DNA of 25,773 nucleotides from a virus, in IMG/VR virus record IMGVR_UViG_3300030329_003473, positions 1 to 25,773 of that record; one strand, written 5' to 3'. A program made the translations under genes and the position numbers. Position 1 is the stretch's first letter. The number at the start of each line of letters is the position of its first letter. The notes beneath the pieces are model-generated. The model saw only the letters and a program-made list of their open reading frames with translations, ran no database searches and was not told the DNA's origin. Shown here one piece after another: positions 2,943 to 24,659 of this stretch.

Positions 2943-5069
2943 TTAATTGTAGCCGTAGTCTATTATTGATTGCACATCCCCCATAGACGGCAACTTTCCG
3001 CTAAGTATCGCCTGAAAGAACCTGTTTCCAGCTAAAGCTGAGTCTGAACCAAACGAGCCTTCCTGTCCCATCTGAGACTGGAGGAATGCCTGTGAACCAC
3101 CCTGCAACTTCCTCCGAAGATACTCAGCAACCGCAGCAATATTATTAGCGTTAATCTCATTCCCTTTAATTAAGTTTGCAAGGTTATAGGCAAAGTCTTG
3201 CGCCTTCTCATCATAGTTTTCAAACGGACCTATGCCACCCATCGTACTTCCGATATGACCTTCACTGTCAGGATTAGTATCAAAAATCCCCTCCGAAGCC
3301 GTGCTCAGCATGGTATCAAGGTTAGGGTAATACTGGTCCATAGTGTTTTGGAAGTCCTGCTCACCAAGGTTGGAAAGCTGGGCACCAGTTGGCTTATCTG
3401 TAAAGCTAGGAGCCTGACCCTCACCGTAAATCTCACCGGCAATCTGATTCAAAGCATCTGGGATTTGGTGCGGAGGTAACTGACCAAGCACATTCAACTT
3501 ATTCTGGATATCCTGCTGTGTCAGGCCAGCCTTCTGCAACTCTCGCTGCATATCCAGACCGGCCCTCTGCATATCGCTTTCAATCTTAGCGATCCTGATC
3601 TGGGTCTCACCCTGCATCCCTAAGCCCCTAAGCTGCGTCTGGCTCTGTAACTGGGCACCTTGTAGCCCAGACATAGCCTGAACACCCGCTGCATATCGCT
3701 TGGCATAATCATCAAACGGTTCACCCGGCAATCGGTTCATGTAGAATGCTGGCATCCTAGCACGGTTGCGTGCATGAGCATTAGCTGCCCGATTCCTCCG
3801 ACGCTGTTGACGTGTAGCTTCTTCACGCCGCTTGTGTTTATCAAATTGCTCCCACTGCTCTTTAGTTCTCTTGGAGTGGCCACCACGAACACGAGCATAT
3901 AAATCCTCTGGGAATGGTTCATCGCCCGGCTGATCTGCAACAGGTCGTGTCCATGGCATGTCACCACGAACATCTTCAGGTGGCTGACCAGTAAGACCAG
4001 CAATTTCCTCTGGGGTAGCACCCACTGCACCCACTGCACCCAGCAGTTCTTCAGTGTTTGTTTCTTCAGGTGGAACACCAGCTTCAGCTAGGGTAGCATC
4101 GAGATCATCTGGTGCTCCGGCACCAGCAGCTATCTGTTCTTCTTCCTCTGAATACGCCGCTTCGCCTACATCTGAAAAACGAGACCCTTCCGGTGCAATG
4201 TCTTGATCCGTGGGTGCATCCTGACCGCCTATTACCTGCTGGCCGATACCCCGCAAGGTATCCATGATATTCTCAGGAGATGATAGGTTTTCCATCTGCT
4301 CGGGGGTTAAGCCATATGTTGGCTGATTAGCTTGACCTTGTACTGTCTGCCCAGCAACTTCCTTCTGTTCTTCAATGTTTGTTTCTTCAACCGGCTTATC
4401 CACTGGGCGTTTTGTCATATCATCAGGATAAGGCTCGCCGCCATCACGAGGGTCCCGGTTAGCAGAGTCACTAACTGAAGATGTTCGTGCCCCACCCTTA
4501 GGTGAACCCTTAGGCACCACCTCATGGCGAGTCTCACCTGTCTTAGGGTCAGTATATGGAACTACCTCATAGGTCCTTCGGTCATAGGATTGCATTGGAC
4601 CGATAGGATTACCGGCAGCATCCGTCTCTTGGAAGATCTCAGTGTACTTATTAGTCCCAGTTCGGGGCTGGGCATAGTAATCTCGTGCATAATCCTGACC
4701 ACGCTGCCAACTCTCTTGCTCTTCCTGCTTCAGGCGGGCCTTACGGGCCATATCTTCGGCTTCAGTCTCAGCACGAGATGCAGCCTTAGCACGCTCCGCA
4801 GCATCAACCATAGCCTGATGCTTCTCTTCAGGTGACATACCCGCACGAGCAACAACACCATCGAGGTAATCATCACGCATGCTGCGATGAACACCCATTT
4901 GCTTGCCTCCAGACCCACCTGAAGACCGAGCATTTTCTATAAACCCCTGCCTTGCAGCAGCTGGTAGTCCAGCCAATATTCGATTATACATGGTTGGGTT
5001 ACGATTGGCTCCAGCATTGAATTTCTGTGCCATCTGGAGGCCACGGTCATAATCAGGATCGAATGGCAT
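2943..5069 (-). CDS. 708-residue virion-associated protein sharing a motif with the giant protein
   Basis: No family is recognised. Residues 1-135 are charged and mostly helical (many Ala, Glu, Arg, Lys). Residues about 135-400 are polar, acidic and probably disordered. Residues about 400-440 are strongly basic (runs of KRR and RQQRRRNR). Residues about 465-540 are Gln-rich helix (LQGAQLQSQTQLRGLG), and the C-terminus is a compact helical region. Residues 298-306 read FSDVGEAAY, the same nine-residue motif found four times in the giant protein upstream. Both proteins also begin with MPFD (second Met of the giant). The start ATG at 5069 has GGTGA four bases upstream and lies 8 bases after the giant's stop. 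Lying between two very large genes after the tail module, it is best guessed to be an internal virion or ejection component. The basic patch could contact DNA. Coding status is certain, function is not. Confidence 0.9.
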   Translation of the reverse strand: MPFDPDYDRGLQMAQKFNAGANRNPTMYNRILAGLPAAARQGFIENARSSGGSGGKQMGVHRSMRDDYLDGVVARAGMSPEEKHQAMVDAAERAKAASRAETEAEDMARKARLKQEEQESWQRGQDYARDYYAQPRTGTNKYTEIFQETDAAGNPIGPMQSYDRRTYEVVPYTDPKTGETRHEVVPKGSPKGGARTSSVSDSANRDPRDGGEPYPDDMTKRPVDKPVEETNIEEQKEVAGQTVQGQANQPTYGLTPEQMENLSSPENIMDTLRGIGQQVIGGQDAPTDQDIAPEGSRFSDVGEAAYSEEEEQIAAGAGAPDDLDATLAEAGVPPEETNTEELLGAVGAVGATPEEIAGLTGQPPEDVRGDMPWTRPVADQPGDEPFPEDLYARVRGGHSKRTKEQWEQFDKHKRREEATRQQRRRNRAANAHARNRARMPAFYMNRLPGEPFDDYAKRYAAGVQAMSGLQGAQLQSQTQLRGLGMQGETQIRIAKIESDMQRAGLDMQRELQKAGLTQQDIQNKLNVLGQLPPHQIPDALNQIAGEIYGEGQAPSFTDKPTGAQLSNLGEQDFQNTMDQYYPNLDTMLSTASEGIFDTNPDSEGHIGSTMGGIGPFENYDEKAQDFAYNLANLIKGNEINANNIAAVAEYLRRKLQGGSQAFLQSQMGQEGSFGSDSALAGNRFFQAILSGKLPSMGDVQSIIDYGYN
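4152..4178 (-). repeat. FxxVGxAAY motif in the 708-residue protein
   Basis: FSDVGEAAY, residues 298-306, followed by SEEEEQ. It is the only copy outside the giant gene. Confidence 0.8.
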
Positions 5070-5077
5070 TGTGTCAC

Positions 5078-8000
5078 CTATGAATAAAGATTACCAATCA
5101 GTGGATTTAGTATACCCATAAGGATCTGGTTTCGTAATCGCTGTTCATCAAGCTGTTCTTGATAACGTCGATACCAATCCTTACCTGTTAACATGGCCTG
5201 TTTCAAGCCAAGGTCATGGGCAAGTTGTTCTCGTTTTCTAACATCATCAGCGTATTTAAGCTGCTGCTCCCAAGGGATACGCAACATGGATTGACGGCCA
5301 CCAAGGAGGGACTGTGCAAGGGGACCAAGTGCGTGACGGCTAAAGGTTCCTACATCACTCGACATTCCTCTGCCTGCCCCACCCAACAGATTCCTCTGTG
5401 TCGGGCCAGCCTGCTGACGTGCCTGTGCAACAGCCTGATTGACTAACAACTGCGGGTTGATGCCACGTGCTGTAATCATTTCACGACTGATACCCGGATC
5501 TACTTCAATCATTCCCGTCTTCTCAATACCCTGAGGCATGATGTCGAGTATGTTCTGTGAGATAGGTACAGGTTCACCTTCCTCGACAGGCTCTTCATCT
5601 ACCGGAGGTTCTGGTAGCGGATCATCATCCCGTTCCGGCGGAGGTGCAACAATTCCCGGTGTTCCCGGCGGAGGTGCAACAATTCCCGGTGTTCCCGGCG
5701 ATGGTGTAACTCCCGGTGTTTCCGGTGATGGTGTAACTCCCGGATTCCCCGGTGATGGTGTAACTGGAGGGGTGGCTTCCGGCGGCTCTACAATTGGTGC
5801 TGGTGTGCCCGGGGCAGGTTCAGCAGGCATTACGAAGCGTGCTAGTGGTTTGTCAAATGCGGCAACCCTCCCCGGCGCAACTTCATTAATAGGCGTACCT
5901 GATTTTATATGCTTTAAAAAAGATAAAGGGTCTTGAGTCGGAGCGGCCAATTGTTTCGGACGCTCTACAACCGTGTAGTCCTCCATGCTAATCGGTCTGC
6001 CTGTCTTCTTATCCTTTGCTTCAACCTGATTCCATACCGATTGCATCAGGTCTTCAATTTTTGGCCAGTAGACTTTTTTAACTTCGTCTATCTGCTTAAT
6101 CTTATTTTGCAAAGCGGCTTGCTGCTGAAAAGTCTCATCACGTGTTAACTCACCTGACTTATACTTTTTACCAATAGCCTCCTGTTCTTCAATTAGTCGG
6201 TGTTTAGCACTGGCAAATGCACTTGCCTTAGCCCGATAATCTGTGGGAATGTACTTTGTGTATACTGGTCCCATCCATGCTGGCCAGTTATCACGGTTCC
6301 ACTCAGGAATTGGTTCACCCCCACCTGCAACTTGCTTAAATCTACGGATGTTATCCTTAGCCTGCATAAAGCCATCACTATATAAACGCCTTGCAGCAGC
6401 TGGCAGTTTAGACCATTCACGATGGGATAGATGCTTATCTTCTTTAGGGTTCTTTAGCATCTGCGGGTTCAAACCCCTAAAGGTATACCGTTTTGAACCG
6501 TGCTCTACTTGCGGAAGCATTGACTCCACAATATCAAGCCTTCTCTGCGCTTCTTCCGGGCTGAGATTATGTATGCCATCCCTATCGTGAGACTCACCAG
6601 TAACAGCTTCAATATCAGAGATCATATTATCAACCAAGTATTTAAAAGCAAACTCCTGCTCTTTGATAAATTTAGGTTCTGGGACACCATGACTAGCCCA
6701 GCGATCCCACTTCAACGGAGCGTCTCCCATTGCGTTGGTGAGGTGCGATGGAGTATCTACATCAGGAGGCGATACCGCAGGGGATGAAGCGGGTTGTGCG
6801 AAATCTGTAGCACCCTCTGCAACGGATCGTCTATCATCGTCAGCATAGGCCGCTTCACCAACTTCTGAAAAACGATCAGCTTTGCCGGGAACAGTATCCC
6901 CAGCGACCGGGAACTGGCGGTCCTGTCCTGAACCGAACCACGAACTGGCGGTTTTAGGCTTAGATGGACTATCAACATCTTGAGCAGCCGCTTCACCAAC
7001 CGCTGAGAAATCACGGGCAGGCTCTTCGGCACCACCCATGCCATCGAGTACAGACTGGTAGATATCACGCTTGCCCTGTAACTCCTGTCGGACGTGAGGG
7101 GCAATGTAACGTCCATTCAAAGACTTATCCAATCTGTCTATCTCTTCTTGGAAAAGAGCGGCATCTATACCAGACCCTTGCTCACCAAGGTATTTCTGGA
7201 ATCTAGACAGGTTTGATCTCTCCGCATCCAGATGTCTCTGAAGTTTCTCTCTCTGCTCTCCCTTAAGGCGAGGGTTCTTTAGCTGGGATTCCAGCCTGTG
7301 AATATCAAGATGCGTATCAAGAACCGAACGCCTTGTGTTAGTGATCTTGTTTTTACGATTACGCTCTGCCGCAGCCCTTCTCTCTTCTGGGGTTATCTTC
7401 TTCCATGTCGGGGCTGGGTCCTCCCTTAAAATAGGACCGGGATCTTCCATTTTGTCGGGAACAGGAGCACGTCTTCTGTCGGGAACAGGATCTTCCCTTC
7501 TTTCGGGAACAGGATCCCATCCACCATCAGGCTGACGCAATAGACCCATAGGAGCAGCTGCAAAATTCTCCGGCTCACGCTTTAAGTCTCGGCTGACAAT
7601 ACCACTGTATTCACCTTCAGCACCTGAAGCATCACGACCACCTAACGCTCTTTCAAGTGGGCTTGTTGAAACATCCTTAGGAGTAACGCTTGGTTCAACT
7701 TCCGGCTGCTTTCCAGATAAGGCATTAGATAAACTACCCGACGAAGGCTTCCTAAAATGTTTTCTGACGAGTTGCTCGGGCGACACCTGACCCGACGCTT
7801 CTTGTTGGGTCTCTTTATCCGATAATTCCTTGTATCGTCCTGAGGATGTTCCCGAAAAAGCGAATCGTTCAGGATGCTTCTTGTATAATTCATCCATAAA
7901 CTCCTTGCTCTGCTTCGCAGCCCAAGCCTCTGCGGCACGCTTCCGCTCAGTCTCTTCGTATGACACCCATTTTTTTCTAGACTGTGTCTGCTTGCCCTGC

Positions 8001-11000
8001 CTATGAGGGATTTCGTTGCCAGCCATGTCAAAGGCTTTAACAGGATGAGCATAACCTACATTAGCGCCCCGCTTACGCAGGTGACTGATGGCTTGACTAT
8101 AAGAGCGTGGAATAAACTCGTTACCAAAGATCGAGCGACCTTTGTCGTCCTTTATCAACCTCATAGCCTCATCACGCATCGGCTTGTTCAACATTTTAAA
8201 CAGCTGCGTAATATCTTTGCCGGGAGACTTCCTCTCCTCACCTGTCAACGGATCAACAAAGGTATAGTTTTGACTCCAATCCAGCATGTTCGCCCAGTTG
8301 TCCCACTGACCCGGCTCCTCGGTGGACTCTCGCCACTTGGTCCAATCATCACGACCCACCGCTACATAGGCACCACGCCGCAACTGAGCCTTCGATGGCA
8401 ACTTAACATTCTCATAAGAAGGCATCTTAGGCATTTTAAGATCAGGGGTATACGATACCCACCGACCATCTTCATCCGTCTTACCGGGCGGGGGTGGTAT
8501 GTACTCTCCACCCCACTTAGTTCTCTTCGGCTGCTCTACTGGTGCCTCGTAGTCAGGGCCTTTAAGGTAATCAGGGAAGAACTGCTTCGCCCACTCTGCC
8601 ACAGGCTGTCTTGTGCCCATGCCCTTATGGGTGATATGCGTAGGATTCCCATCCTTATCACGCTCTACATTAAACCGCAAGCGTTCCGCCTCAGACACAA
8701 GTGCATCTGTTGTAGCACCCACCTGCTCTTGTGCCGGAGCAGGAGTAGGAGCAGATCCAAGTTGATCACCGAAGACACGATTGCCGCCTGTATCCTCAAG
8801 ATTATCCAAGATGTTACCAGCGAAACGGAGGCTCATCCTTCCGAGGATTGTCTTTAGATTACTTCCACTCATCTTTCTCCCTATGCCACTGCGAGGGTCA
8901 ACGAGTTTATAATCCTTGCTATCATCTATAGACTGGACAGCCGAATTGAAGGCAGCACCATCCCACTTACCACCCTCCCTGACCTGAGGTTTCGGCGGTT
9001 CTGGCAACGCATCTACCGGCTCAGGATCTTTAGCCCCAATGAGTTGGTCACGTATATCAGGAGTATCTACTGGTGGACGTGGGGATACTGGAGTCGGACG
9101 CTCAGGTGTAGGTTCGGGTGTCGGTGTAGGCTCTACATCGCCAATGAGTTGGTCACGAAGACTTGGCGGTACCGGAACACTGTCGACCGGGAATTGTTTG
9201 ATACGCAGATCTAATGGATCGCGGTCAGGGAAGTACTGGTTACCGGGGAGGCCGGGGTGGCCGGGGTGGCCGGGAAATCCGGGATAAACCGGACGCTCTG
9301 GCTTTTCAAAATGCCCGGAAAGCATTTCATCACGTCGACGTAATAATTCCCTACCCTCAGCAACAGCTTCCTTAGTCAGACCCCAAGCGTTTTTTTGCAG
9401 GAACTGGAATCGCTCTTCATCTTCAGCAGTATAAGTATCGTTATAGAACTCAGGCTTAATTTGACCTGCATCTATATGACCAAAGCCACCCTTACCGAGA
9501 TCTGGTGTCGGGGCAGGACCCTCTGGGATACCAGCATGGGGAGAGGTGTCAGGAACAAGTTTAACAGTGCCGTCGTTATCAACAACCACACTGTGCTTGA
9601 CACCATCTCGTGCCACCTGAGGACGTCCGTAGAAATCATATTCAGACAGGAATCCCTGCATCTCCTCCTCTGTTATCACACCGCTCTCAACTGCCTTGCT
9701 CCATGCATCACGATTCTTAACCATTTCGTCAAACTGACGGTTATTGAAGTCAGCATCTGTATATTCTTTAACAGCAGCATGCCAATCCTTTTCCATGTCC
9801 GTTTGAACCGCACCTCTAAACTCACTGGCCCTATCACGAACCTGATCCCATGGAATCCAGCCTTCACGACCACCGTAGCCAAACTGACCATATGCGTACA
9901 TCTTCCCGTCCGCACCCATAAACCGCAACACAGAGGTCTCGCTGCGTGTTCCAGCATTTAAGGTAAATCGCATTGGCTTCTTGAAGTTACCAAAACGGTC
10001 CTTGATCTCAACCCCACCGGAATTCTTGCCAGCAAAAGAATCCTTTAAGGAGTTGCTAATGCTGGCTATACGACTATCTTCCTCTGGCGGAGGTAAATCA
10101 ACACGCCCCGTTGGAATATCCTCACCACGTACAGTTTTCCCAGTCGGAAGCCCAGACAAATCCACCTGCTGTTCAACCTCTGGTTCATACGCTGCCTCGC
10201 CTACCTCTGCGAAAGGATCTGGTTTCTCGGCTGGAGGCTTGCCGTCCTTCTGGGATTCAGAGCGTAGAAGTTCTAACGCTTGTGACTCTGGGTACACCTT
10301 TCCGCTTACGGTATCACGATATTCATTGGGAGCACCCGGATAAAGTGCTGAAGGCGCGTGGACAAAGCGGCCTGACTCTAAAGCATCCCTTATTAAATCC
10401 CTGCCCTGAGGCTCTGCTGCTTCTTCTGGCTCATAAGCTGCATCGCCTACTTCTGCAAACTTCTCTTTCTGCTTACTGAATAGACGGTTGCCATCCTCGT
10501 CTTCTAGTAGACGTAGGGCGTTGATGGAATCCTTGCGGTTCAGAGCACTAAACAACTGCTTTACGCTCTTGCCGGTGGTAGGCAGCGCCGTTCCAGCACG
10601 TGGATCAATGAACCAATACTTTTTGTCATCCTCTAGGGACTCATCAAAGCTGAAGTCGTCCCACTTACCCGGATCTTCACTACGAACGATATCATCTAAC
10701 TCATTAACAACCTCTGAACGGCGTCGGCTGCGATATTCCTCACGGTTTTCGTTAGGAAGCATCGGAATATGTTCCCGCCCCGCCGCCATCTGCTCTTCCG
10801 CAGACCTTTTGGCTCTCTCGGCAGGGGTCTCATCCCTACGACGTTGCTCAGCTAAAGCCTGCTGCTCTGCTGCCATTGCCCGACGCCTTTCCTCAGCAGC
10901 ACGGTTCATCTCCTCAGCAGTTGGCACTGGCTCCTGATTCCAATTTGGATTGAAGCGTCCCATATCATCGTACCGCTTTAAAGCATCGGCCACCTGCCCC

Positions 11001-12832: not shown

Positions 12833-14226
12833 TATGCAAAGAACCCTTTACCGTGTACTGCATTTTGTAAAATTTGACCCTTACGACGCAGGTCTTCCAG
12901 TTTCTTTCGCTGCTGGATGGCAGACGACTGAGCACCAAGACCTTGCACTGCCTCAGCCACATCGAGACCACGTGTAGCAGCGGTCCCTACATTAGCAAGT
13001 TCGTTCTGCTGCGCTTCATCTGTGATCTGCGCAATGTTTTGGATAGCCATGGGACTTCCTGCACCAGACATCACGTCCTGCAACTGCTGGTTAGCACCAG
13101 CGGTGGTAGCTTTGCTACTGGTTGTTCCGGTGGGAAGTAAGTTTAAATTCTTGGCAGACGCCACTGATTTTGAAGGCTGAATACCAGCATCCACAATTGG
13201 TCCAGCACCTTGATCAAAACCTTGATCATCCTTTCTACCAGCAGCATCCTGATAGCGACCCCATTGCTTTAACGCTAGGTTGACAAGACCAACAGGCCCT
13301 ACACGATCAGTGCCGCCACCACCTCCACCACCAAGACCACCTTCACCCAGCAACTTATCAAGCATATTATCCTTGAATCTGTAGTCCGCCTCGGCCATGA
13401 CCTTCTTCTGATCCCAGTCCGCCCAATCTCTCATGGCCTCATTGAGATCATCAGCCCAATCGCCGCTGACGGCTTTTTTAAACAAGTCCCAGAATCCTGT
13501 GCCATCCCACGGGTGTCGCATAACAGGACCGCCCGGAGGGAAATAGTCGTCTGGAATAGGAATAGAGTCATCACCATCATCATCACCATCACCATCTCCA
13601 TCTCCATCTCCATCACCATCATCAGGATCAGGATCAGGACTCGGCTCACCCGGAACCGGCTGTTCGGGAACTCCGGGGTCTCCCGGCAGCGGGATAGGTT
13701 CACCCGGCTTCTGGCTTTGCCCCCCTTCCACAAGCGTGCCGTCAGGAAGGATATCATACATACCATCACGTATTAGCTGTATTAGATATTCAGGATTTCC
13801 CGGCGATGCGGAGTAAGGGTCTCCCAATAGTTTCGCAATGCGGATAATATCAGCAACACTAATTCCAGACATCTCCAGCCACGACTTAGCTTCATCTGAC
13901 CAGTTAGCAGGATCATACGGGTCTCCCGTACCCGGCCCCGGAGGCATGTCAGGGTAAAGACCTTCAGTAAACTGAATACCCTGCCCTGAACCTGTCGAGC
14001 CAGTCGGTCCTGATGGTCCAGATGGACCTGATGGACCTGATGGACCTGATGGACCAGTCGGTCCTGATGGACCAGTCGGTCCTGATGGACCAGTCGAACC
14101 TGATGGACCAGTAGAATTCCCCCATGGGCCTACTATACCCATGACAGGACCCTGAGTGGTTTGTGGTTGTCCTTGAGTCAGCTGATTCCTTGCTGAGTTA
14201 CGAATAAAATCCTCTGCACGTGCCAT
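12832..14226 (-). CDS. Collagen-like repeat virion protein (464 aa)
   Basis: Residues 40-78 form 13 uninterrupted Gly-X-Y triplets of the GPS/GPT/GST type, a collagen-like triple-helix signature used as a trimeric stalk in many phage virion proteins. Around residues 197-220 is an acidic Asp-Pro/Asp-Gly run (DGDGDGDGDG), and around 307-314 a Gly-rich hinge. The last ~100 residues look helical (QQLQDVMSGAGSPMAIQNI), ending in KGFFA. There is no signal peptide or membrane segment. The ATG overlaps the stop of the tail-collar gene by one base (TAATG), and the stop overlaps the next start in the same way, so translation is probably coupled. Placement right after the fibre-like gene fits a fibre or tail accessory. 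The helical C-terminus and the giant neighbour also allow an internal-virion role. Gene call certain; role inferred. Confidence 0.9.
   Translation of the reverse strand: MARAEDFIRNSARNQLTQGQPQTTQGPVMGIVGPWGNSTGPSGSTGPSGPTGPSGPTGPSGPSGPSGPSGPSGPTGSTGSGQGIQFTEGLYPDMPPGPGTGDPYDPANWSDEAKSWLEMSGISVADIIRIAKLLGDPYSASPGNPEYLIQLIRDGMYDILPDGTLVEGGQSQKPGEPIPLPGDPGVPEQPVPGEPSPDPDPDDGDGDGDGDGDGDDDGDDSIPIPDDYFPPGGPVMRHPWDGTGFWDLFKKAVSGDWADDLNEAMRDWADWDQKKVMAEADYRFKDNMLDKLLGEGGLGGGGGGGTDRVGPVGLVNLALKQWGRYQDAAGRKDDQGFDQGAGPIVDAGIQPSKSVASAKNLNLLPTGTTSSKATTAGANQQLQDVMSGAGSPMAIQNIAQITDEAQQNELANVGTAATRGLDVAEAVQGLGAQSSAIQQRKKLEDLRRKGQILQNAVHGKGFFA
13567..13638 (-). repeat. Asp-Gly/Asp-Pro acidic tract
   Basis: 24 codons of mostly Asp alternating with Gly or Pro in the collagen-like protein; possibly a cation-binding or extended spacer. 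Confidence 0.8.
13993..14109 (-). repeat. Collagen-like Gly-X-Y tract (13 triplets)
   Basis: Tandem 9-base units (GGTCCTGAT/GGACCTGAT on plus) encode GPS, GPT and GST triplets at residues 40-78 of the 464-residue protein. Confidence 0.9.
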
Positions 14227-15221
14227 TATAAACCCAATCCTGTTCTGGAATTATTAAGACGTTCCATCATTGCCACATACATGTATGGCGGCACGGTAGC
14301 AACACTACCACCCGATACTGTATGCGATATTGTACCACTTCCGCTGTGCGAGAGACTACCTGTACCAGCGTGTGCTAAGTCACTTGCTCCAGCATTGGCA
14401 AGTTTCGTGTAAAACGTACCACCAACGCTATCTCCTGTTAAAACACCTACGGTAGACGTAGTTCCAGTGCCTATAGTTGTGTCTGATACCTCGTGTTTAT
14501 GGCTTAACCCGCTTGCAGGGTGATCTGAGATGGTTCCAGCCACGTCCGAACCCGCATGAGCACCAATACCACCGGCAATATCAGATATATTGTGGTCACC
14601 CACAGTCACTGACACCGCAGCTGAGGCAGCACCGCCCGTATTACCGCTATCGGAACTAGACGACCAGCATCGCATGAATTTATCTGCAACATTCAGGCCC
14701 GATCCACCATTGTCTTTAGAATTAGCAGTTCCGTCCATGATGCTCCAGCCTTCAATGCCATTATCACCCTGAACACCCATGCGAACACTGCCTATCCGGT
14801 GGTCGCCGTAACCCGGAGCAATCTTAGAGCCGTCTTTAGCTTCAAAAAACATGATTACATCACCGGCCACCACGTTTGGGTCCTCCCCCGGCCCTACCGG
14901 AAGGTAAATTTGAATGTCACTACGACCTGTGGTGCCATTACCCTTGAAATCGTCCGCTTCACGGCACAACACAAGGCTCATTCCACCGTTGTCACTTGGG
15001 TAAGTGCTGCTGTCCGCATTGTAGTCCCAATTGTGCTGGGCTACTGCCCATCTGCACGATTGAATGGCGGGAGCCACTACCGATCCACGAAAAGTCACTG
15101 TGCCAGAGTGCTCAAGCCCCATATTGGCGTTGCTGAAGATATCACGCAACACCGCAACCTGCTCTGGGAGCATGCCTGCATCCAGTAAGCGGTCGAATTG
15201 AATGGCATGGCGGGAATACAC
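14226..15221 (-). CDS. Tail-collar-type fibre / receptor-binding protein (331 aa)
   Basis: Residues 158-186 (GWSIMDG ... KFMRCWSS) resemble the 'GW-x-x-x-DG ... LxxxFxxG' core of the phage tail-collar domain. The C-terminal VPPYMYVAMMERL (310-322) matches the 'PPYxxxxxIxxL' ending typical of collar-type fibre tips. Between them, residues 210-300 are Gly/Ser/Thr-rich with His at many turns (DHN, AHAG, DHP, HKH, AHAG, SHSG, SHT), suggesting a beta-rich tip with possible metal-binding HxH. Residues 1-157 are an N-terminal region of unknown fold, presumably virion attachment. Start is GTG at 15221, sharing a G with the TAG stop of the nozzle gene and preceded by GAGGGGG at 10 bases. An ATG at residue 17 is the alternative. 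A host-recognition role is inferred from domain type and position after adaptor and nozzle genes. Confidence 0.8.
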   Translation of the reverse strand: MYSRHAIQFDRLLDAGMLPEQVAVLRDIFSNANMGLEHSGTVTFRGSVVAPAIQSCRWAVAQHNWDYNADSSTYPSDNGGMSLVLCREADDFKGNGTTGRSDIQIYLPVGPGEDPNVVAGDVIMFFEAKDGSKIAPGYGDHRIGSVRMGVQGDNGIEGWSIMDGTANSKDNGGSGLNVADKFMRCWSSSSDSGNTGGAASAAVSVTVGDHNISDIAGGIGAHAGSDVAGTISDHPASGLSHKHEVSDTTIGTGTTSTVGVLTGDSVGGTFYTKLANAGASDLAHAGTGSLSHSGSGTISHTVSGGSVATVPPYMYVAMMERLNNSRTGLGL

Positions 15222-17722
15222 TACTCAGTAACCCCCTCTATGTCTACTGTCTGGATTTCAGGGACATTATCACCAGCATATCCACGCAACTCGACAGACA
15301 TCTTATGGTCACCATGAGATGTACCGCTATACATACCATCAATGCGGTACGTTTCGTGTCCCGATGCGTTCTCTAGGCTACTTCGAGCCGACTTCATGTA
15401 CAAAACAGCATCTTCTGTGTTAGTATCACCCACTTCGATGGCATCACCTAGCTTCATGGGCATACCATTAGAAGCTGGGGTAGTCGAATTGTTGTAATAA
15501 ATCCGAATATCAACCCTTTGGTCACCTGCCGTGGGCTTAAACTTGATTCCGACAGAACGCTTATGCTCAGCGTCATCCATAGGGAAGTGGAAAGATGAAC
15601 TTCTCCATGAAAACGGTATAGCACCGACAACATACTTGCTGGTTGTGTCTGGATTCGTTGTCCAGTTTGCTGAAACTGTTAATGTGGTCGATGTCTGACC
15701 ACTAATTGTACGTCTTTGCCCTTTACCAGTACCATCAAAAACATATACGCTAGCCCCAACCATACCACTAGTAAAGGAGGCAGCTGAATCAGACAAAGTG
15801 TTGCTACTGCCACCCGTTGCAGTGCCAGCCGTCTCGGAAGTGACAACATCTGTAGTACCTTGATCAGCTAAATATACCTTGGAATTCTCTCCGCCAAAGC
15901 TAAGGCGATTTTCACCACTAATTTGCACAGAACTGGCTGTCGGGATTTGCTGAGGATACTCAAATAGATCCCATGTTTTCCTTCTGATATTGAAGACCAG
16001 AGCACGTCTTGGAAAACTACCAGCATCACCCTCAAAAGCTACAAAAAAGTAAACCCGAGCCTTAGATCTGTCCACTTTTACATGAAACTTATCCGACTTG
16101 GAAAAATCTATTTTGTCCCCATCACCATCTCGACGCCATAAGTCATGGATAGCAGTACCAATCGACTGGCTTGAGCCACCAAAAATATATGGACCGCTAT
16201 CATCCATCATGTACGCCGCATTTTCAAACACATCCCAACAATAATGGTTAAAAATACCACGGTCATCTACATAGCGAACACTTCCATCTCTCAGCGGATC
16301 GACAGAAAAGCTAAAAGCATACTTATGTCGCTTTCCACACAAATACAAATAAGGACCTAAAGGACAAGCACCAACAATATCGTCATCATCATTAATGTAT
16401 TCCTGTACTGTAAACACATTAACACTGGAAACACTCTCAGGCTCATCAGGCTCACTAAAATCAACCTGCCTGCGATTACTTTGTTCCGATCTAATCACAT
16501 AGCTAAGACCCGATGCAGTATTACTGACCGCTGTATCCACTGTAATGGAGGTTGCAGAAGCAGCTGTAATCTTAAATGGCTTGGCTTCTCCAGAAATCTC
16601 TATATAACGACCCACCATCGTCGCAACCCAATCCGTACTCGTTCCCGTAATGGTAGTCGAACCGTTGGTAGCCACTGTACCCCTGTTGTAATCCACATTT
16701 CCAAGGTAAAAGTAGCGATCTTGGAACTGAACAACTACTGGCCGGTCATTCGGCGGTGGCTCAAAGCGTCTCGCAACAAGGCTGTTGTCCACCGGGGGAT
16801 TCGCCAGAACAAGAATCGTATCATCATCTGAACTAAGATTAAGCGTGTTGTCATCTACCTGATCATTGAAGGTAATCGAACCGGAATAATCAACGGTATG
16901 CACCTTAAATAACACATTAGTAACGCCAGCGGTACTTCTCCACAACTCAACCTTGCCTGTTCCTGAAACACGAGCCTCAGTGGTGGTAGCAATACTTGAC
17001 CAGTCAAACTGATCTGTCTCCTCGGCAGTCACTGTAGTAAGAACCGACATGCTGCTTGGGACTGGAGTGGTGGTATCGTCCGTATACCTGACACCACATA
17101 CGTATGTGCCAGCTGTTGCACCAAACCCATCCTTGCACCAAGTCCCACCAGAAGTGTAAGTACCGTCAAATGATGTGTTAGATAAGGTGAAAGTATTCGT
17201 CGTAACACCCTCAATTGTAAACGTCTGTGCGTTTAGGGCGTTTGCCATCCCACCTGTGGCTGTAACATTGCCAATACGAACCTGCTCACCATTCGACATA
17301 TCATGTCCATTGCTAGTGATTTGGTACTTCCCACCGCTATTAGCAATTCCCGTAATGGCACCACCCTTGCCTGCTACACTGATGGATGGAGTGGCAATAC
17401 TAGGACCCACTGATGGTGCAGTAATGCCAAGCTGCTCGACATTGGATGTTATGCCATCCCAACGAAAACCCCTGTCGATCCCATTAACACCAATGAGGTC
17501 ACCCTGACGTGTCTTGCAAAAACACAGGCGTTGGAATGTATGGAAATTACTGGATGAAATCGTAGATGTGCTGGTAAATGTGGCGGGCTGAATGCCACCA
17601 CGCACCTGTAATTTACCCTGAACTAATGTACTAACATTGTTCTGTGATACAGATGAACCGGCAGGAGAGTCTGTGGCATCTGCATCAGACACCTGACCCA
17701 AAAAATCACTGATACGTGGCAT
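15221..17722 (-). CDS. Tail nozzle / tail-tubular-B-like protein (833 aa)
   Basis: A long beta-rich protein directly after the adaptor gene, as in podovirus tail modules. Residues 482-530 (SVRYVDDRGIF ... FGGSSQSIGTAIHDLW) resemble the blade pattern of the beta-propeller nozzle family: a 'screen that the object is visible' strand followed by Ser-Gln-x-Ile-x-x-x-I-x-x-x-W. Residues 132-195 carry an inserted domain resembling the FCCH fold (ITSNGHDMSNGEQVRIGNV ... TFTLSNTSFDG), common as an appended beta module in phage tail proteins. Residues 348-412 and 632-699 are two further small beta inserts of the type also present in the adaptor. No signal peptide or helix-rich region is seen. ATG at 17722 follows the adaptor stop by one base. 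Expected role: the distal tube of a short tail, carrying the fibre and gating DNA. Family assignment is by pattern only. Confidence 0.8.
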   Translation of the reverse strand: MPRISDFLGQVSDADATDSPAGSSVSQNNVSTLVQGKLQVRGGIQPATFTSTSTISSSNFHTFQRLCFCKTRQGDLIGVNGIDRGFRWDGITSNVEQLGITAPSVGPSIATPSISVAGKGGAITGIANSGGKYQITSNGHDMSNGEQVRIGNVTATGGMANALNAQTFTIEGVTTNTFTLSNTSFDGTYTSGGTWCKDGFGATAGTYVCGVRYTDDTTTPVPSSMSVLTTVTAEETDQFDWSSIATTTEARVSGTGKVELWRSTAGVTNVLFKVHTVDYSGSITFNDQVDDNTLNLSSDDDTILVLANPPVDNSLVARRFEPPPNDRPVVVQFQDRYFYLGNVDYNRGTVATNGSTTITGTSTDWVATMVGRYIEISGEAKPFKITAASATSITVDTAVSNTASGLSYVIRSEQSNRRQVDFSEPDEPESVSSVNVFTVQEYINDDDDIVGACPLGPYLYLCGKRHKYAFSFSVDPLRDGSVRYVDDRGIFNHYCWDVFENAAYMMDDSGPYIFGGSSQSIGTAIHDLWRRDGDGDKIDFSKSDKFHVKVDRSKARVYFFVAFEGDAGSFPRRALVFNIRRKTWDLFEYPQQIPTASSVQISGENRLSFGGENSKVYLADQGTTDVVTSETAGTATGGSSNTLSDSAASFTSGMVGASVYVFDGTGKGQRRTISGQTSTTLTVSANWTTNPDTTSKYVVGAIPFSWRSSSFHFPMDDAEHKRSVGIKFKPTAGDQRVDIRIYYNNSTTPASNGMPMKLGDAIEVGDTNTEDAVLYMKSARSSLENASGHETYRIDGMYSGTSHGDHKMSVELRGYAGDNVPEIQTVDIEGVTE
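15232..15238 (-). promoter_or_regulatory. Shine-Dalgarno supporting the GTG start of the collar gene
   Basis: GAGGGGG is spaced ten bases from GTG 15221, which overlaps the TAG stop of the nozzle gene. It favours GTG over the ATG 16 codons later, which has no comparable site. Confidence 0.5.
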
Positions 17723-17723
17723 A

Positions 17724-18896
17724 CTAGCTGTCCGTAGTAATAGTTGACTCTAAGTGTCTGAATAGGTAGTGATACCGACTCTGGCGTCCCCGGCCAATAC
17801 TTGACCAATGACGTGCCTCAGCCTCTAACGCCCTCCTCATCTCCATGTCAGCAACCTGCTTATTCATGGACACATCACGAGAGTCATTCGACATGCGTGC
17901 TAAGCGGTACTCAATTTGTGCTTTCAGAGCCTCGATCATTGTCTCGGTCATATCCACAGGATCAGACACAACAATCTTTGTGGACGTATACGCCTGACTA
18001 AGCGTATCGTCAATTGTTACTGTCGTCCCTGAAATGGCAGTAATTTTATGCTGCTCATTATAGGGGTTATCCCCCGCAAGACCTGTCGGATGAGTGGCAG
18101 TGTCCGAACTAAGACGAATAACCGAACCAACCATACTACTTGGCAACCCTGTGCTGGTCGTCACAGTGCTTGCACCGGATGAACCTGACGCAGTATAAGT
18201 TCGTGCCTCAGTCTCAACACCGGCCCATCGTAAAACTCTGGGGCGACGACGATATATGAAACCAAGTGGCTCTGCTGTTTCAGGGCTGGGATCAATCCAT
18301 AACGCCCAACGATTGTCACTGTCTGGATCACGCATGATAGTCCACGCCCACGTCTGACCAGATGAATTAACAAAACGCTCACGCTGAAGCCATTCAGTGG
18401 GAGTTATGTAATAGGTCACCCAGTAACTCTTTTCCACGGCAACGTCATAAAGACGCCACAAATCAGAAGGTAGAGGATAAACGCTACGATACGACTCATA
18501 TGTCGTACTCGCAGCAATATCAGCACCCGGATTAAACGTGGAATTTAATGTAATCACCGTATCAGATACACGACTCTCAACGGTGTATACAACTTCATCA
18601 ATACGAACACGACCAAACTTTATCCATGACGGCCAAGTACCGCCAGTCAAAGTCAACTGCCGCTCGTTAGATCCGCCAGTGTGGTCGTAGGCTATTGTGC
18701 CCGTATTGTAATTCTCAACTAAATCAATACGCCCCTCATCAAGATAGTAATCCCACTCAGCAGCCATACTGACATCACGATAGGCACCAAGAATGGATTC
18801 TCGATACACGCGCAAGTCTTTACTGCGTGCCCCACCATCATTCAAGGAGGTCACATAATCCAGTAAGTCGCTATAAGTTAAGACGCCTTCATCCAT
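17724..18896 (-). CDS. Head-to-tail adaptor-like protein (390 aa)
   Basis: The N-terminal helices (residues 1-60, LTYSDLLDYVTSLND ... YRESILGAYRDVSM) and a C-terminal helical segment (315-375, ETMIEALKAQIEYRLARM) bracket beta regions. A 'LPxDxWRL' segment at 142-149 is characteristic of phage gatekeeper/adaptor proteins of the T7 gp11 type and related families. Two inserted beta domains, residues about 65-137 and 233-310, share the pattern of small extra domains seen twice in the next gene. The product would form the ring between portal and nozzle. It sits between the small accessory genes and the nozzle gene, 6 bases after the preceding stop. The assignment rests on context, length and the helix/LPxD/helix layout. 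Confidence 0.75.
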   Translation of the reverse strand: MDEGVLTYSDLLDYVTSLNDGGARSKDLRVYRESILGAYRDVSMAAEWDYYLDEGRIDLVENYNTGTIAYDHTGGSNERQLTLTGGTWPSWIKFGRVRIDEVVYTVESRVSDTVITLNSTFNPGADIAASTTYESYRSVYPLPSDLWRLYDVAVEKSYWVTYYITPTEWLQRERFVNSSGQTWAWTIMRDPDSDNRWALWIDPSPETAEPLGFIYRRRPRVLRWAGVETEARTYTASGSSGASTVTTSTGLPSSMVGSVIRLSSDTATHPTGLAGDNPYNEQHKITAISGTTVTIDDTLSQAYTSTKIVVSDPVDMTETMIEALKAQIEYRLARMSNDSRDVSMNKQVADMEMRRALEAEARHWSSIGRGRQSRYHYLFRHLESTITTDS

Positions 18897-20207: not shown

Positions 20208-22385
20208 CTAGTCCTCTTCTTTCTTGGCCCGCATGAAATCAAGTTCCATTTGTGCCTTCTGCTTATCTAGTTCCAGAGTCTGCTTTTTGACCTCTAGGTC
20301 CATTTGCTTACCCTGCATGTCTAACTGTTTACTCTGCATATCAAGCTGCTTTAACTGCAACTCAACCTGCTGTTCAGCCTGCGCTGCCTGCTGCTCAGCC
20401 TGTGCTGCTTGCTGTTGAGCCTGCATCTGCTGTTGTTGCATCTGCATCTGCTGCTGTTGCTGCTGTGCTTCTTCAGGGCTAGGCTGCTGAGCCTGCTCTA
20501 TAACCTGATCTGTAACCATATAACGGCCCGGATCTAAGTCATTGGCTTTTGCCCAGTCCTCAATGAGTGCATTGTAGGGCTGAACAATTCCCTGTGAAGC
20601 GAACTGTTGCAGGTTAGGCATAGCAATCTGAGCAAACTCGTTAAGCTGCCTAACTCGATTAACTTTATTAGGTTTACGTGCACTACCAGCTTCAACCCTG
20701 TAATCATAGTCCCTGACAACCTTATCAAATGACTGCGTCTTAATCTGCTTAGTCCACAAATAGGCAGCAGATGCACCCAAGACAGGGAATACATCGTCGG
20801 CACTCAATATCCACTCCGCTGCTTCCATCTCCTTCAGAGCACAGTTACTAAGCCAATCTTCAACCTGACTACTCATATCATCAGGACGAACAGAAACATT
20901 CTGATTTCTAATCTCAGCTTCCGCTGCTGACCTGATTTGAGTTGGACCGGCAAGGCCATAGATCAACTCTGTTAAGCCCGTTCTTTTATCAATCATGTCA
21001 AGAACTTGGCGAACCATATTCCAAATCTCAACATTGAAGTTAGGAGCATCCAAGAATGAGACAACGTCTTGCACACTCTTCCCGAATATGTCACTGATTT
21101 CTATATGAGTATACGGACCCAATCCAGACTTAATCTGATCTTGTATCTCAGCACCAGCAGCTTTAGCTATAGCTACATACGTTGTGCTCGATGCAGCTAC
21201 CTTGTCAGCAAGGAATGACATACACCAGTTAACGAAGCGTAGTTCGCCAATCGCTGGCTTAATCAGTGATATCGGCCACACTTCTTTCGGTTTGTCGTGG
21301 AAATGAAGTCGTGAGAATGGCCAGCCACCGTCCGTCCAAAACGGGATAGGCCATTGCACTTGCATAAAGGCTTCATCAAAAGTCTTTTTGTCTAGATCCC
21401 ACGATGGGAAGTTAAGGGGAAAGGGGACATCCTCAGACACGGCTAGGAAACAGAAGTCACCAAACTGTTCCCAATCGTACTTGCTCTGACCTTCAGCACG
21501 ATTCGCAATCTTCAGACGATCCCCAAACCCACATTTTGTATACACTTCCCAGTATTCGATTAAGTCAAAAGTCTTCCCAGACTTTTTCTCACCGGATGAA
21601 GGGCGACGACCTTTAGCGTATGTCTCACCCTGTGCAGCCTTGGAAGCAAGGTTGCCGGATAGCTTACCTTCAAGATTATACTTGCGGTCTACTTTCCATA
21701 CTGGATGACAGACACGGCGGGCAACCCAAGTGATATCTTCCCAGTACTCTGCATCTGGATCGACAACAAAGTCATCAACAGATACATAGTGACTCTTAGG
21801 ATAGCGGATGGCAGAACCTTTAGGCTGATGTATATCAGTCCAAAGCAAAGACATCCCCTTGATGATAGCCTCAGTAATTGCACGCCTTGCCTGAACCTTC
21901 TTGTCAGCTTCATGCTGCAACCAGTTCAGGTAGTGCTCCTTGATGCTGGAGTGTGTCCGTTTGATCTCACGTATGAACTTTTCCTGTGTAAGGAAATGGT
22001 CATAGCTTTGAGACATCATTGGATCGGCAGGGTTGATACCTAATGCTTCAGGTGCAATATCCGGGCCTATCCGGGGAGTAACTTGGATTACCGGGTTGCG
22101 GTGATACAACACCGGCCCAAACAAAGCTACAGCCTCGAAGACCCTATTAACCGTCATCCTGAAGTTAGGTAACGCTCCCTGAGCCTCCTTATCAAGGAAC
22201 CCACCCGGAGCCTTGGCATACTCGCCCTTCCACATCCAATCATGAGAGCCGTCAAAAAACTTCATCGCCTCATCGGCGTATCGTCCAAACTTTTCCTGTT
22301 TGGTTTTTTGAGCGTCCTTGATCTTCTGCATCCACTGCGAGCATATCGCCGCCATCGGGTGATTTGTGTCGTCCCAGCTTGGCAT
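20208..22385 (-). CDS. Portal protein (725 aa)
   Basis: Length, context after the terminase and protein layout fit a podovirus-type portal, the dodecameric ring at the capsid vertex through which DNA is packaged and released. The N-terminal region (HPMAAICSQWMQKIKDAQKT) and a middle region with many aromatic residues (WMWKGEYAK, WVARRVCHPVW) are typical of the wing. The C-terminal ~90 residues (about 635-725) are Gln-rich repeats (QQQQMQAQQQAAQAEQQ, then LDMQSKQLDMQGKQMDLE), predicted as a long coiled coil of the kind forming the portal barrel. ATG at 22385 has AGGGAAG upstream. The next gene starts one base after its stop. Confidence 0.85.
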   Translation of the reverse strand: MPSWDDTNHPMAAICSQWMQKIKDAQKTKQEKFGRYADEAMKFFDGSHDWMWKGEYAKAPGGFLDKEAQGALPNFRMTVNRVFEAVALFGPVLYHRNPVIQVTPRIGPDIAPEALGINPADPMMSQSYDHFLTQEKFIREIKRTHSSIKEHYLNWLQHEADKKVQARRAITEAIIKGMSLLWTDIHQPKGSAIRYPKSHYVSVDDFVVDPDAEYWEDITWVARRVCHPVWKVDRKYNLEGKLSGNLASKAAQGETYAKGRRPSSGEKKSGKTFDLIEYWEVYTKCGFGDRLKIANRAEGQSKYDWEQFGDFCFLAVSEDVPFPLNFPSWDLDKKTFDEAFMQVQWPIPFWTDGGWPFSRLHFHDKPKEVWPISLIKPAIGELRFVNWCMSFLADKVAASSTTYVAIAKAAGAEIQDQIKSGLGPYTHIEISDIFGKSVQDVVSFLDAPNFNVEIWNMVRQVLDMIDKRTGLTELIYGLAGPTQIRSAAEAEIRNQNVSVRPDDMSSQVEDWLSNCALKEMEAAEWILSADDVFPVLGASAAYLWTKQIKTQSFDKVVRDYDYRVEAGSARKPNKVNRVRQLNEFAQIAMPNLQQFASQGIVQPYNALIEDWAKANDLDPGRYMVTDQVIEQAQQPSPEEAQQQQQQMQMQQQQMQAQQQAAQAEQQAAQAEQQVELQLKQLDMQSKQLDMQGKQMDLEVKKQTLELDKQKAQMELDFMRAKKEED

Positions 22386-22928: not shown

Positions 22929-24659
22929 TTAATCTCCCGATGGGCCTAAGTTAATATATGAGCGGAAACCATCTCCGCTCCGTATCTTTGAGTTAATACT
23001 ACGTTGACGCGCCCTCTTAGCACGCTCCTGTAATATCTTACCAACACGTGTGGTATTCTTCTGCAATCTCTGTGGCTTCACATAAGGCAAGCCATGTGCA
23101 GCAGCATACTCACATGTTTCAATCGCATGGCAATTACCACGCCTGTTACCCTCATCGGTAACGAATCCATTCATTATCTTCTTTTTAAATCGGAAAAACT
23201 CACGGATAAGGTTAGGGCATTTCACTACACTAACCATCATCTTCGGTGTTCCTGAGTCACGAACATGCAGCCAATCTCTTAGCCTCATTTCACGACCTTT
23301 AATGTCATCACTACCAGCACGGAAGTTGCTACCAGTCTCAATGCTACGTACACCCCGACTCTCCAGTTCCCGACTGTATTGTATGCGAGGCAAAACACCA
23401 CTACCTATTTCTCGTATACGACCACCGTGAGCATCAATTATAAACGACTGGAACACCTTGCCCCGAGTTTTAAACTCCACAGCATCTGCAAACTGACGAG
23501 CATTACACTGCTGTAAGTATAACTCGTCGTAGCAAATAACATAGTCACCATATGTCTCCGGGGGTACTCCCCAGAAAGTTACAGCACAAACACTGTGGCC
23601 CGGGTCAACCACCATATAGCGACACCAGTCCTCAGGTGGCTCCCCTTGGTTATCCGTCAATACTTTTTGTACTGCGTTGCGTGGGTCTTCAAAGCGGATA
23701 GCATTATGCACATCCTTTGAGAAAGTCGGGTACATGAGTACGCTGTCCGTAACCATCTCACCGAGTGCACGCTTCCGGTACTCATCCTCACCCTTCTTAC
23801 GCCAACGCTTAATATTCTCCTGCTTGACCTGCTCTGGCATAAATGGGTTGTCAAAGATAGTTGCACGGATGACTACTGTACTTGGCTTCTCTAGATTCTT
23901 CTCATCATCTGCACGCTCATTAAGATTGATGATGGCATCATTTTTAGCGTGTGGCAAAGCAGACCACCGTAGCTTTCCGTCCCGCATAGATAGACGGGCA
24001 ATCATTTCGTCGTACCATTCGGGACGCTCTAGGTCTTCATCAATATGAACTAAGTCAGCTTGGAAACCCTGAGCAGGCTCCCCTTTAGAACCCATCGCAT
24101 ATATGGTCCACCCGTTTGTTAGTTCGCACATTTCAAAGACGTTCTGGGCACGCTTCTTCCACGCCCACTTCTTAACCATTCTCTCTGGAACCAGCGGGGG
24201 AGCAGATCGGGTAGCTTTTTTACGCTTCCAGTCATCCTCCAGCCAAGGCTTCCAAGACCTCCACTCCCCGGTCTCCTTATCCTTGATAATCTTAAAGGCA
24301 CCCGGTCGAAACAGATACTTATGAATCGTCCTCCCGATGTGCCCCTCGTCCATCCCCAGACACACCAGCACTCCGTTCTCTTTCGGATATTTCTCGTAGG
24401 GATCTTGCCCAGTCACAGCACGAGCATCTTCCACAAATGCGCACAGACTCTTCCCCACTTGGTTTCCTGCTTGTATCAGAACTTCTTTCGATGGACATGA
24501 ATGGAACCTCTCTTGGAAAGGGAGAGGTTCGTAAAGACGTAATGCCTCTATGCGGCGACGTGCACGCTCGGCATGTAGAGCACGCAACTCTGACTTCTGG
24601 TGTTCTGTGGCATGCTGGTTGTAAACAGCATCCGGTATGTTAGTCGAGTTGTTCTGCAT
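22929..24659 (-). CDS. terL: Terminase large subunit (576 aa)
   Basis: The packaging motor ATPase-nuclease. Residues 42-53 (LYEPLPFQERFH) form a Q-motif-like adenine pocket. Residues 65-71 (GNQVGKS) are the Walker A. Residues 203-209 (LVHIDED) are the Walker B with catalytic D207 E208. Residues 231-239 (RWSALPHAK) fit the coupling motif. The RNase H-like nuclease begins near 345: YMVVDPGH (first acidic D352) and FIIDAHGG (D409), with a further GNCHAIETCEY segment towards the C-terminus. Length is normal for the family. The start ATG lies inside the 3' end of the preceding gene by 20 bases, as typical for small/large terminase pairs. It uses ATP hydrolysis to drive DNA through the portal and cleaves concatemers. 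This is the best-supported function in the window. Confidence 0.95.
   Translation of the reverse strand: MQNNSTNIPDAVYNQHATEHQKSELRALHAERARRRIEALRLYEPLPFQERFHSCPSKEVLIQAGNQVGKSLCAFVEDARAVTGQDPYEKYPKENGVLVCLGMDEGHIGRTIHKYLFRPGAFKIIKDKETGEWRSWKPWLEDDWKRKKATRSAPPLVPERMVKKWAWKKRAQNVFEMCELTNGWTIYAMGSKGEPAQGFQADLVHIDEDLERPEWYDEMIARLSMRDGKLRWSALPHAKNDAIINLNERADDEKNLEKPSTVVIRATIFDNPFMPEQVKQENIKRWRKKGEDEYRKRALGEMVTDSVLMYPTFSKDVHNAIRFEDPRNAVQKVLTDNQGEPPEDWCRYMVVDPGHSVCAVTFWGVPPETYGDYVICYDELYLQQCNARQFADAVEFKTRGKVFQSFIIDAHGGRIREIGSGVLPRIQYSRELESRGVRSIETGSNFRAGSDDIKGREMRLRDWLHVRDSGTPKMMVSVVKCPNLIREFFRFKKKIMNGFVTDEGNRRGNCHAIETCEYAAAHGLPYVKPQRLQKNTTRVGKILQERAKRARQRSINSKIRSGDGFRSYINLGPSGD

Follow-up and report, generated by a model that had tools for sequence, protein, structure and literature searches.

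A nine-residue peptide repeated along the linkers of a giant phage protein is conserved within one virus clade and may act as a docking motif for internal cargo

The window analysed here (W) is the whole of a 25.8-kb virus record whose main genes all lie on the minus strand (Table 1). The adaptor, nozzle, fibre and decoration proteins were named by gene order and sequence reading, and small genes were also seen between the portal and the adaptor-like gene. A portal search retrieved 79 relatives from IMG/VR. The gene order in relatives is scaffold, major head protein (phrog_9953), TerL, portal, adaptor, nozzle, fibre, giant protein, 708-aa protein and a protein of 977+ aa, the first two being the genes upstream. 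In T7-type podoviruses, internal proteins are encoded at the position that matches the last three of these genes. The giant gene is thus placed among those for internal virion proteins, in an order that relatives conserve. Judging by this order, the giant is an internal (cargo or ejection) protein, probably carried inside the head. Neither the giant, the 708-aa protein and the third ORF nor their homologues belonged to any Pfam or PHROG family; in the three giants searched, no Pfam domain passed its cut-off and no known polyvalent, catalytic or effector-type domain was recognised. Likewise, known ejection proteins were matched by the giant neither in sequence nor in fold, its C-terminal model being of low confidence. 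Portal, TerL, capsid and third ORF had no match in 50,697 phage records and, judged on these four marker proteins, the virus family is without a relative in that collection. Nozzle and portal searches of GTDB genomes found no relative, so no host genome was pointed to, and the 708-aa protein, the third ORF, the giant C-terminus, the block here called WD and the nozzle, used as queries, revealed no further giant genes.

Table 1. Genes, motif copies and other features of the window, with the basis for each.
Feature	Position	Strand	Basis or remark
Decoration-like protein		minus	gene order and sequence reading
HNH/endonuclease VII-like protein, 210 aa	24640-25272	minus	profile matches and order in relatives
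Large terminase (TerL)	22929-24659	minus	profile matches and order in relatives
Portal, phrog_156	20208-22385	minus	profile match and order in relatives
Adaptor-like protein	17724-18896	minus	gene order and sequence reading
Nozzle-like protein	15221-17722	minus	gene order and sequence reading
Collar-type fibre	14226-15221	minus	gene order and sequence reading
Collagen-like 464-aa protein		minus	between fibre and giant gene in listed order
Giant protein P0001, 2584 aa	5078-12832	minus	ORF list and translation; no Pfam/PHROG family
708-aa protein P0002	2943-5069	minus	no recognised family
Incomplete third protein after 708-aa gene		minus	partial in window
WD bead copy 1, directly upstream of motif copy 1	10466-10744	minus	AlphaFold pLDDT about 85; family alignment A2
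YVN bead, between motif copies 1 and 2	10247-10402	minus	pLDDT about 85 over most of bead
WD bead copy 2, not followed by a motif	8768-8977	minus	alignment A2
WD bead copy 3, not followed by a motif	8108-8335	minus	alignment A2
Motif copy 1, FAEVGDAAY	10433-10459	minus	residues 792-800; L001 ortholog FAEVGEAAY; linker pLDDT <50
Motif copy 2, FAEVGEAAY	10187-10213	minus	residues 874-882; ortholog in L001; pLDDT <50
Motif copy 3, FSAVGEAAA	6983-7009	minus	giant residues 1942-1950
Motif copy 4, FSEVGEAAY	6845-6871	minus	giant residues 1988-1996
Motif copy 5, FSDVGEAAY	4152-4178	minus	in P0002, about residue 298/708
Second short repeat, copy 1, LRDQLIG	9140-9160	minus	self-comparison
Second short repeat, copy 2, IRDQLIG	9035-9055	minus	self-comparison
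Conserved C-terminal region, ends in long predicted helix	5081-5542	minus	alignment A1, 32-47% identity; low-confidence model, pLDDT 54

A first-pass annotation had pointed out five copies of a nine-residue motif, F-[AS]-x-V-G-[ED]-A-A-[YA], in the giant and its neighbour. A pattern scan of the six frames of W found exactly these five, at the same positions, all in frame on the minus strand and none elsewhere, with four in the 2,584-aa giant and one in the 708-aa protein. From their composition, the two proteins would be expected to hold 7e-6 matches to the full pattern and 0.034 to its core (F..VG.A). Indeed, the core occurred 0.04 times on average and at most twice in 2,000 block shuffles, compared with the five copies observed, and a chance repeat was rejected on this ground. 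Motif pairs were also among the best matches when both proteins were compared with themselves, above most shuffled maxima. The basic or proline-bearing flanks and the acidic tail described at first reading were recovered over 15 copies: the right flank contained 35% D/E as compared with a protein average of 15%, the left flank 23% K/R as compared with 12%, and both were enriched in proline (17-20%, average 12%).

The giant is built of a Pro/Gln-rich N-terminus followed by beads on flexible linkers. An AlphaFold model of residues 695-919, based on nine aligned rows, showed two compact beads (pLDDT about 85) joined by linkers (pLDDT <50) that hold motif copies 1 and 2. The WD bead was predicted to fold as a helix, a beta hairpin and helices, and the YVN bead as a small domain with a three-stranded beta-sheet and helices; a fold search of the bead model in PDB and viral models returned nothing significant for either. 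WD beads number three in W, two in the relative G009, and one each in G015 and G021/G022, and YVN-related stretches were seen by eye in G009 and G015. Given the pLDDT of their linkers, we rejected the idea that copies 1 and 2 lie inside a folded domain. Nor does the motif, as a rule, cap the C-terminal end of WD beads, since the second and third WD beads of W and the first of G009 are not followed by a motif. The surroundings, initially described as otherwise disordered, are not so throughout, as the linkers holding both modelled copies run between compact predicted domains.

The giants of several relatives carry the motif: there are three copies each in L001 (84% identical), G009 and G028, and one, FAAVGEAAA, in the partial giant gene of G016. 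Portals of G009 and G028 are 98% identical, and the two were therefore counted as one lineage. Motif-bearing lineages were thus three, namely W/L001, G009/G028 and G016, with portals 74-78% identical, and the motif was kept in the giants of all three lineages with a giant gene at hand and a portal identity of at least 74%. The N-terminal part of the G016 giant had no BLAST match to the other giants, yet it is there that its copy lies. Throughout 15 copies, F1, V4, G5, A7 and A8 were invariant, the residue before F was usually basic or proline, and an acidic, Pro-containing tail followed. Compared across ten distinct contexts, codons 1 to 8 of the motif showed a pS of 0.62, near saturation, and a pN of 0.076 (pN/pS 0.12), while the three G009 copies differed by 13 synonymous changes and no amino-acid change. 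With third positions near saturation and residues rarely changed, it is the peptide, and not the DNA, that selection keeps. On these alignments, the motif is a selected short linear motif, kept as protein while the surrounding sequence changes. Because third positions are saturated, we also rejected the view that a recent DNA duplication or a recombination seed explains the copies entirely. The second codon ends in CA in every copy, and this identical ending suggests that the copies descend from one ancestor by old duplication.

Sharing of the motif by two gene products, as originally noted, was seen in W only; the counterparts of the 708-aa protein in G009 and G028 lack it. The part of the third cargo-like ORF within the window and the 464-aa protein are also without it. 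Taken together, these absences indicate that the motif is not a universal packaging tag.

Sequence around the motif behaved differently from the motif itself. At copies 1 and 2, G009 and G028 were 57-97% identical before the motif, identical in the motif, and 25-40% identical over the next 40 residues. Homology between strains often broke off directly after a motif copy, and L001, compared with W, carried an additional linker-bead-motif cassette. Based on these breaks and on the extra cassette, it appears that beads of the giant are swapped in the course of evolution and that the motif is retained.

As the first-pass annotation had advised, we looked for the pattern in other viruses, scanning the DNA of 2.9 million viral contigs. 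Forty-one contigs had a match, and more than one copy was found only in three known members of this phage family. Each of the other contigs had one match, in an unrelated ORF; a short phage protein and a tape-measure-like one were among these. The motif was absent from relatives whose portals are 58-70% identical, and in the contigs scanned it is confined to one clade. Retention in giant homologues, together with a low frequency both by chance and in unrelated proteins, agrees with the conserved element first proposed. The giant of G015, whose portal is 69-70% identical to those of W, G009 and G028, had no F..VG.A; its long linkers contained six copies of [PA]E.[IV]IR, compared with 0.004 expected. 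One such element was also present in G009/G028. More distant relatives carry other short repeats, each less well supported. Mimicry of another structural protein was rejected, as an ORF similarity scan of the phage family gave no convincing second carrier; the best non-giant matches, a metallophosphatase-like C-terminus and a capsid segment, were both imperfect. The scaffold of the closest relatives of W contains FEAVGG and a conserved LGF[AST][DN][VI]Q stretch, which we judged too weak to claim. A limited literature search did not find the motif described.

We tentatively propose, with a confidence just short of an even chance, that FxxVGEAA acts as a multivalent docking motif of an internal cargo protein, most likely loading or tethering the giant in the head; the partner, the virion location and the loading role are what we infer. 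The motif, placed in flexible acid- and Pro-rich linkers of the giant and once in the neighbouring 708-aa protein, would bind with several copies per chain to one repeated pocket on a partner. Affinity would then come from number, leaving the spacing and identity of the beads free to change. The partner would most likely be a component of the (pro)head interior, that is, scaffold, major capsid protein or portal, and docking would load the giant cargo into the head or tether it there. We favour a head partner because the gene lies among internal-protein genes, because many copies suit an abundant partner, and because related solutions are known. Cargo is brought into an HK97-fold shell by a disordered domain that bears short conserved motifs (PMC8049743), T4 internal proteins have in common only a capsid targeting sequence (PMC3012670), the P22 scaffold may be needed for ejection-protein incorporation (PMC12005531), and a structured piece of the crAss001 cargo gp45 sits on the portal wing (PMC10172136). 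As in encapsulin cargo, a short conserved peptide was found here in a disordered region, copies 1 and 2 having a pLDDT <50 and the peptide recurring in three lineages. Docking to a common partner, as suggested in the first-pass annotation, is the best reading of motif conservation and linker position, and the head component is our candidate for that partner.

A wider scheme, more speculative and in our view rather unlikely, is that each clade within this family of uncultivated podoviruses has a private peptide-receptor pair for its giant cargo, with FxxVGEAA in the W clade, [PA]E.[IV]IR in G015 and perhaps [DN]P[ILV]xxALxG elsewhere. Peptides repeated along the beads-on-string would then form a swappable multivalent loading code in heads, compatible with free bead exchange.

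The motif might, alternatively, crosslink the cargo from within, by binding in trans a bead of the giant, the 708-aa protein or the third protein, and thereby hold the internal bolus or the ejected channel together. It is common to adjacent cargo-type proteins, W, G009 and G028 have both the motif and WD beads, and ejection proteins of the T7 type assemble with one another (PMC8954989). However, the model with one WD and one YVN bead left both motif copies at pLDDT <50, with no sign of docking in cis; G015 has a WD bead without the motif, and no motif comes after WD copies 2 and 3 of W. Such crosslinking seems unlikely to us. We give distinctly less weight to docking in the host, in which the motif would recruit a bacterial protein once the ejected giant enters the cell. 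Injected giant multidomain phage proteins are known (polyvalent proteins, PMC5512222), and different hosts would fit the clade restriction, but no host genome with nozzle or portal relatives was found among GTDB genomes and the giants have no recognised effector-type domain.

A cleavage element had also been suggested, and a cut at V-G-[ED]/A-A (slash, cut) during head maturation would free the beads. The hydrophobic-x-Glu/Ala pattern bears a loose resemblance to the prohead protease sites of T4-type phages. In SPN3US, cleavage motifs broadly of this sort are known (PMC5694885). Yet no prohead-protease family was recognised in the head module, in selected ORFs of G022 (57 kb) and G028 (54.5 kb) or among the internal proteins, and the invariant residues exceed a three-residue site, including an F three positions ahead of V and the two alanines that follow the acid. 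With no capsid-maturation protease recognised among head-module genes or the selected ORFs from these larger contigs, cleavage was not borne out and we hold it to be very improbable. G022 does carry an M19 dipeptidase, of a family that acts on dipeptides. Finally, a recombination relic, in which linker-plus-motif cassettes are copied and shuffled and the peptide is without function, could account for the cassette gained in L001 and for the G009/G028 homology breaks beside the motif, but neutral copies would not show a pS so far above pN, which largely refutes it and leaves it barely credible.

Loading of very large internal proteins is poorly understood in tailed phages that lack an obvious targeting propeptide. 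A fixed docking peptide amid exchanged surroundings would offer a concrete handle, a nine-residue probe, on this question. Should its target be the shell or scaffold, the motif would constitute a multivalent loading signal and could serve as a tag with which to package other proteins. Short linear motifs have mostly been studied in eukaryotes; here, what is conserved in a phage protein of structural type is such a motif.

Several known systems resemble this one in part. Polyvalent proteins (Iyer et al. 2017, PMC5512222) are likewise giant mosaic phage proteins made from interchangeable modules, but the present giant has small repeated beads and linear motifs instead of a recognised catalytic or polyvalent domain. 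Podovirus ejection and cargo proteins (T7 gp14/15/16, P22 gp7/16/20, crAss001 gp45; PMC8954989, PMC12005531, PMC10172136) are also large mosaic proteins encoded after portal, adaptor and nozzle, and the C-terminal part of the giant is predicted, at low confidence, to be helical. In contrast, they have no sequence family in common with the giant, and the sections of those reports considered here describe neither a repeated linear motif nor a bead-on-string build for the T7, P22 and crAss001 proteins. In the T4 capsid targeting sequence (CTS; PMC3012670, PMC5694885), as here, a short element is the conserved part of otherwise diverse internal proteins. The CTS is, however, one N-terminal propeptide, 10-20 residues long, which the prohead protease cuts off, whereas FxxVGEAA is internal and multi-copy, at residues 792, 874, 1942 and 1988 of the 2584 in the giant and near residue 298 of the 708 in its neighbour. 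The cargo of the SrpI encapsulin, cysteine desulfurase CyD (PMC8049743), also combines short conserved motifs with a divergent disordered region, which docks in a shell of the HK97 lineage. Its motifs, LARLANEFFS and AASPYYFLDG, lie in an N-terminal domain of an enzyme, whereas in the present case a single motif recurs along a giant phage protein, with the shell as a candidate partner. As far as these sequence comparisons go, the motif is in kind a variant of cargo docking peptides, made unusual by its repetition along a giant protein and by its apparent replacement with an unrelated motif in a sister clade.

The giant proteins of G015 and G009, two viral relatives found via their portals, share a 119-aa block that includes a 'WD' bead (a small predicted folded domain); this block is 81% identical between them, whereas their portals are 70% identical (alignment A4: L098, L099, L101). 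On sequence grounds, this difference suggests module exchange or strong constraint. Another bead of the window's giant, 'YVN', has a faint WW-domain-like look. Foldseek on its model listed WW domains, only at E 1-4, and we regard this likeness as a lead, not a result.

In the G015 giant, [PA]E.[IV]IR occurs six times (0.004 expected) within flexible linkers rich in Ala, Gln and Asp, and apparently takes the place of FxxVGEAA, the nine-residue motif repeated in the window's giant. The window's giant also has a second short repeat, [LI]RDQLIG (two copies), adjoining Pro-rich linkers; a distinct LGQALTGxxP-like repeat is present twice in G009 and G028. The scaffold-like protein of the window's closest relatives contains FEAVGG close to its N-terminus and a conserved stretch, LGF[AST][DN][VI]Q, and both would, from sequence, faintly resemble FxxVGEAA.

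Locations of the features in the window and in related stretches (L-numbers)
Feature	Stretch	Positions	Strand
'YVN' bead	window	10247-10402	-
[LI]RDQLIG repeat	window	9035-9160	-
G015 giant homologue	L101	9604-15477	-
Scaffold-like protein	L005	4153-5367	+
G028 Arg/Gly/Pro-rich protein	L159	1093-3060	-
G022 dipeptidase gene	L160	8385-9698	-
G028 sigma-70 region 4 protein	L099	3247-4023	+

Between its decoration-like and HNH genes, G028 encodes a 656-aa Arg/Gly/Pro-rich protein that most other relatives lack. On the G022 phage contig, an M19 membrane dipeptidase gene (Pfam 5e-49) adjoins the scaffold-like gene. G028 also encodes a possible phage transcription factor, in which Pfam recognises sigma-70 region 4 (3e-15).
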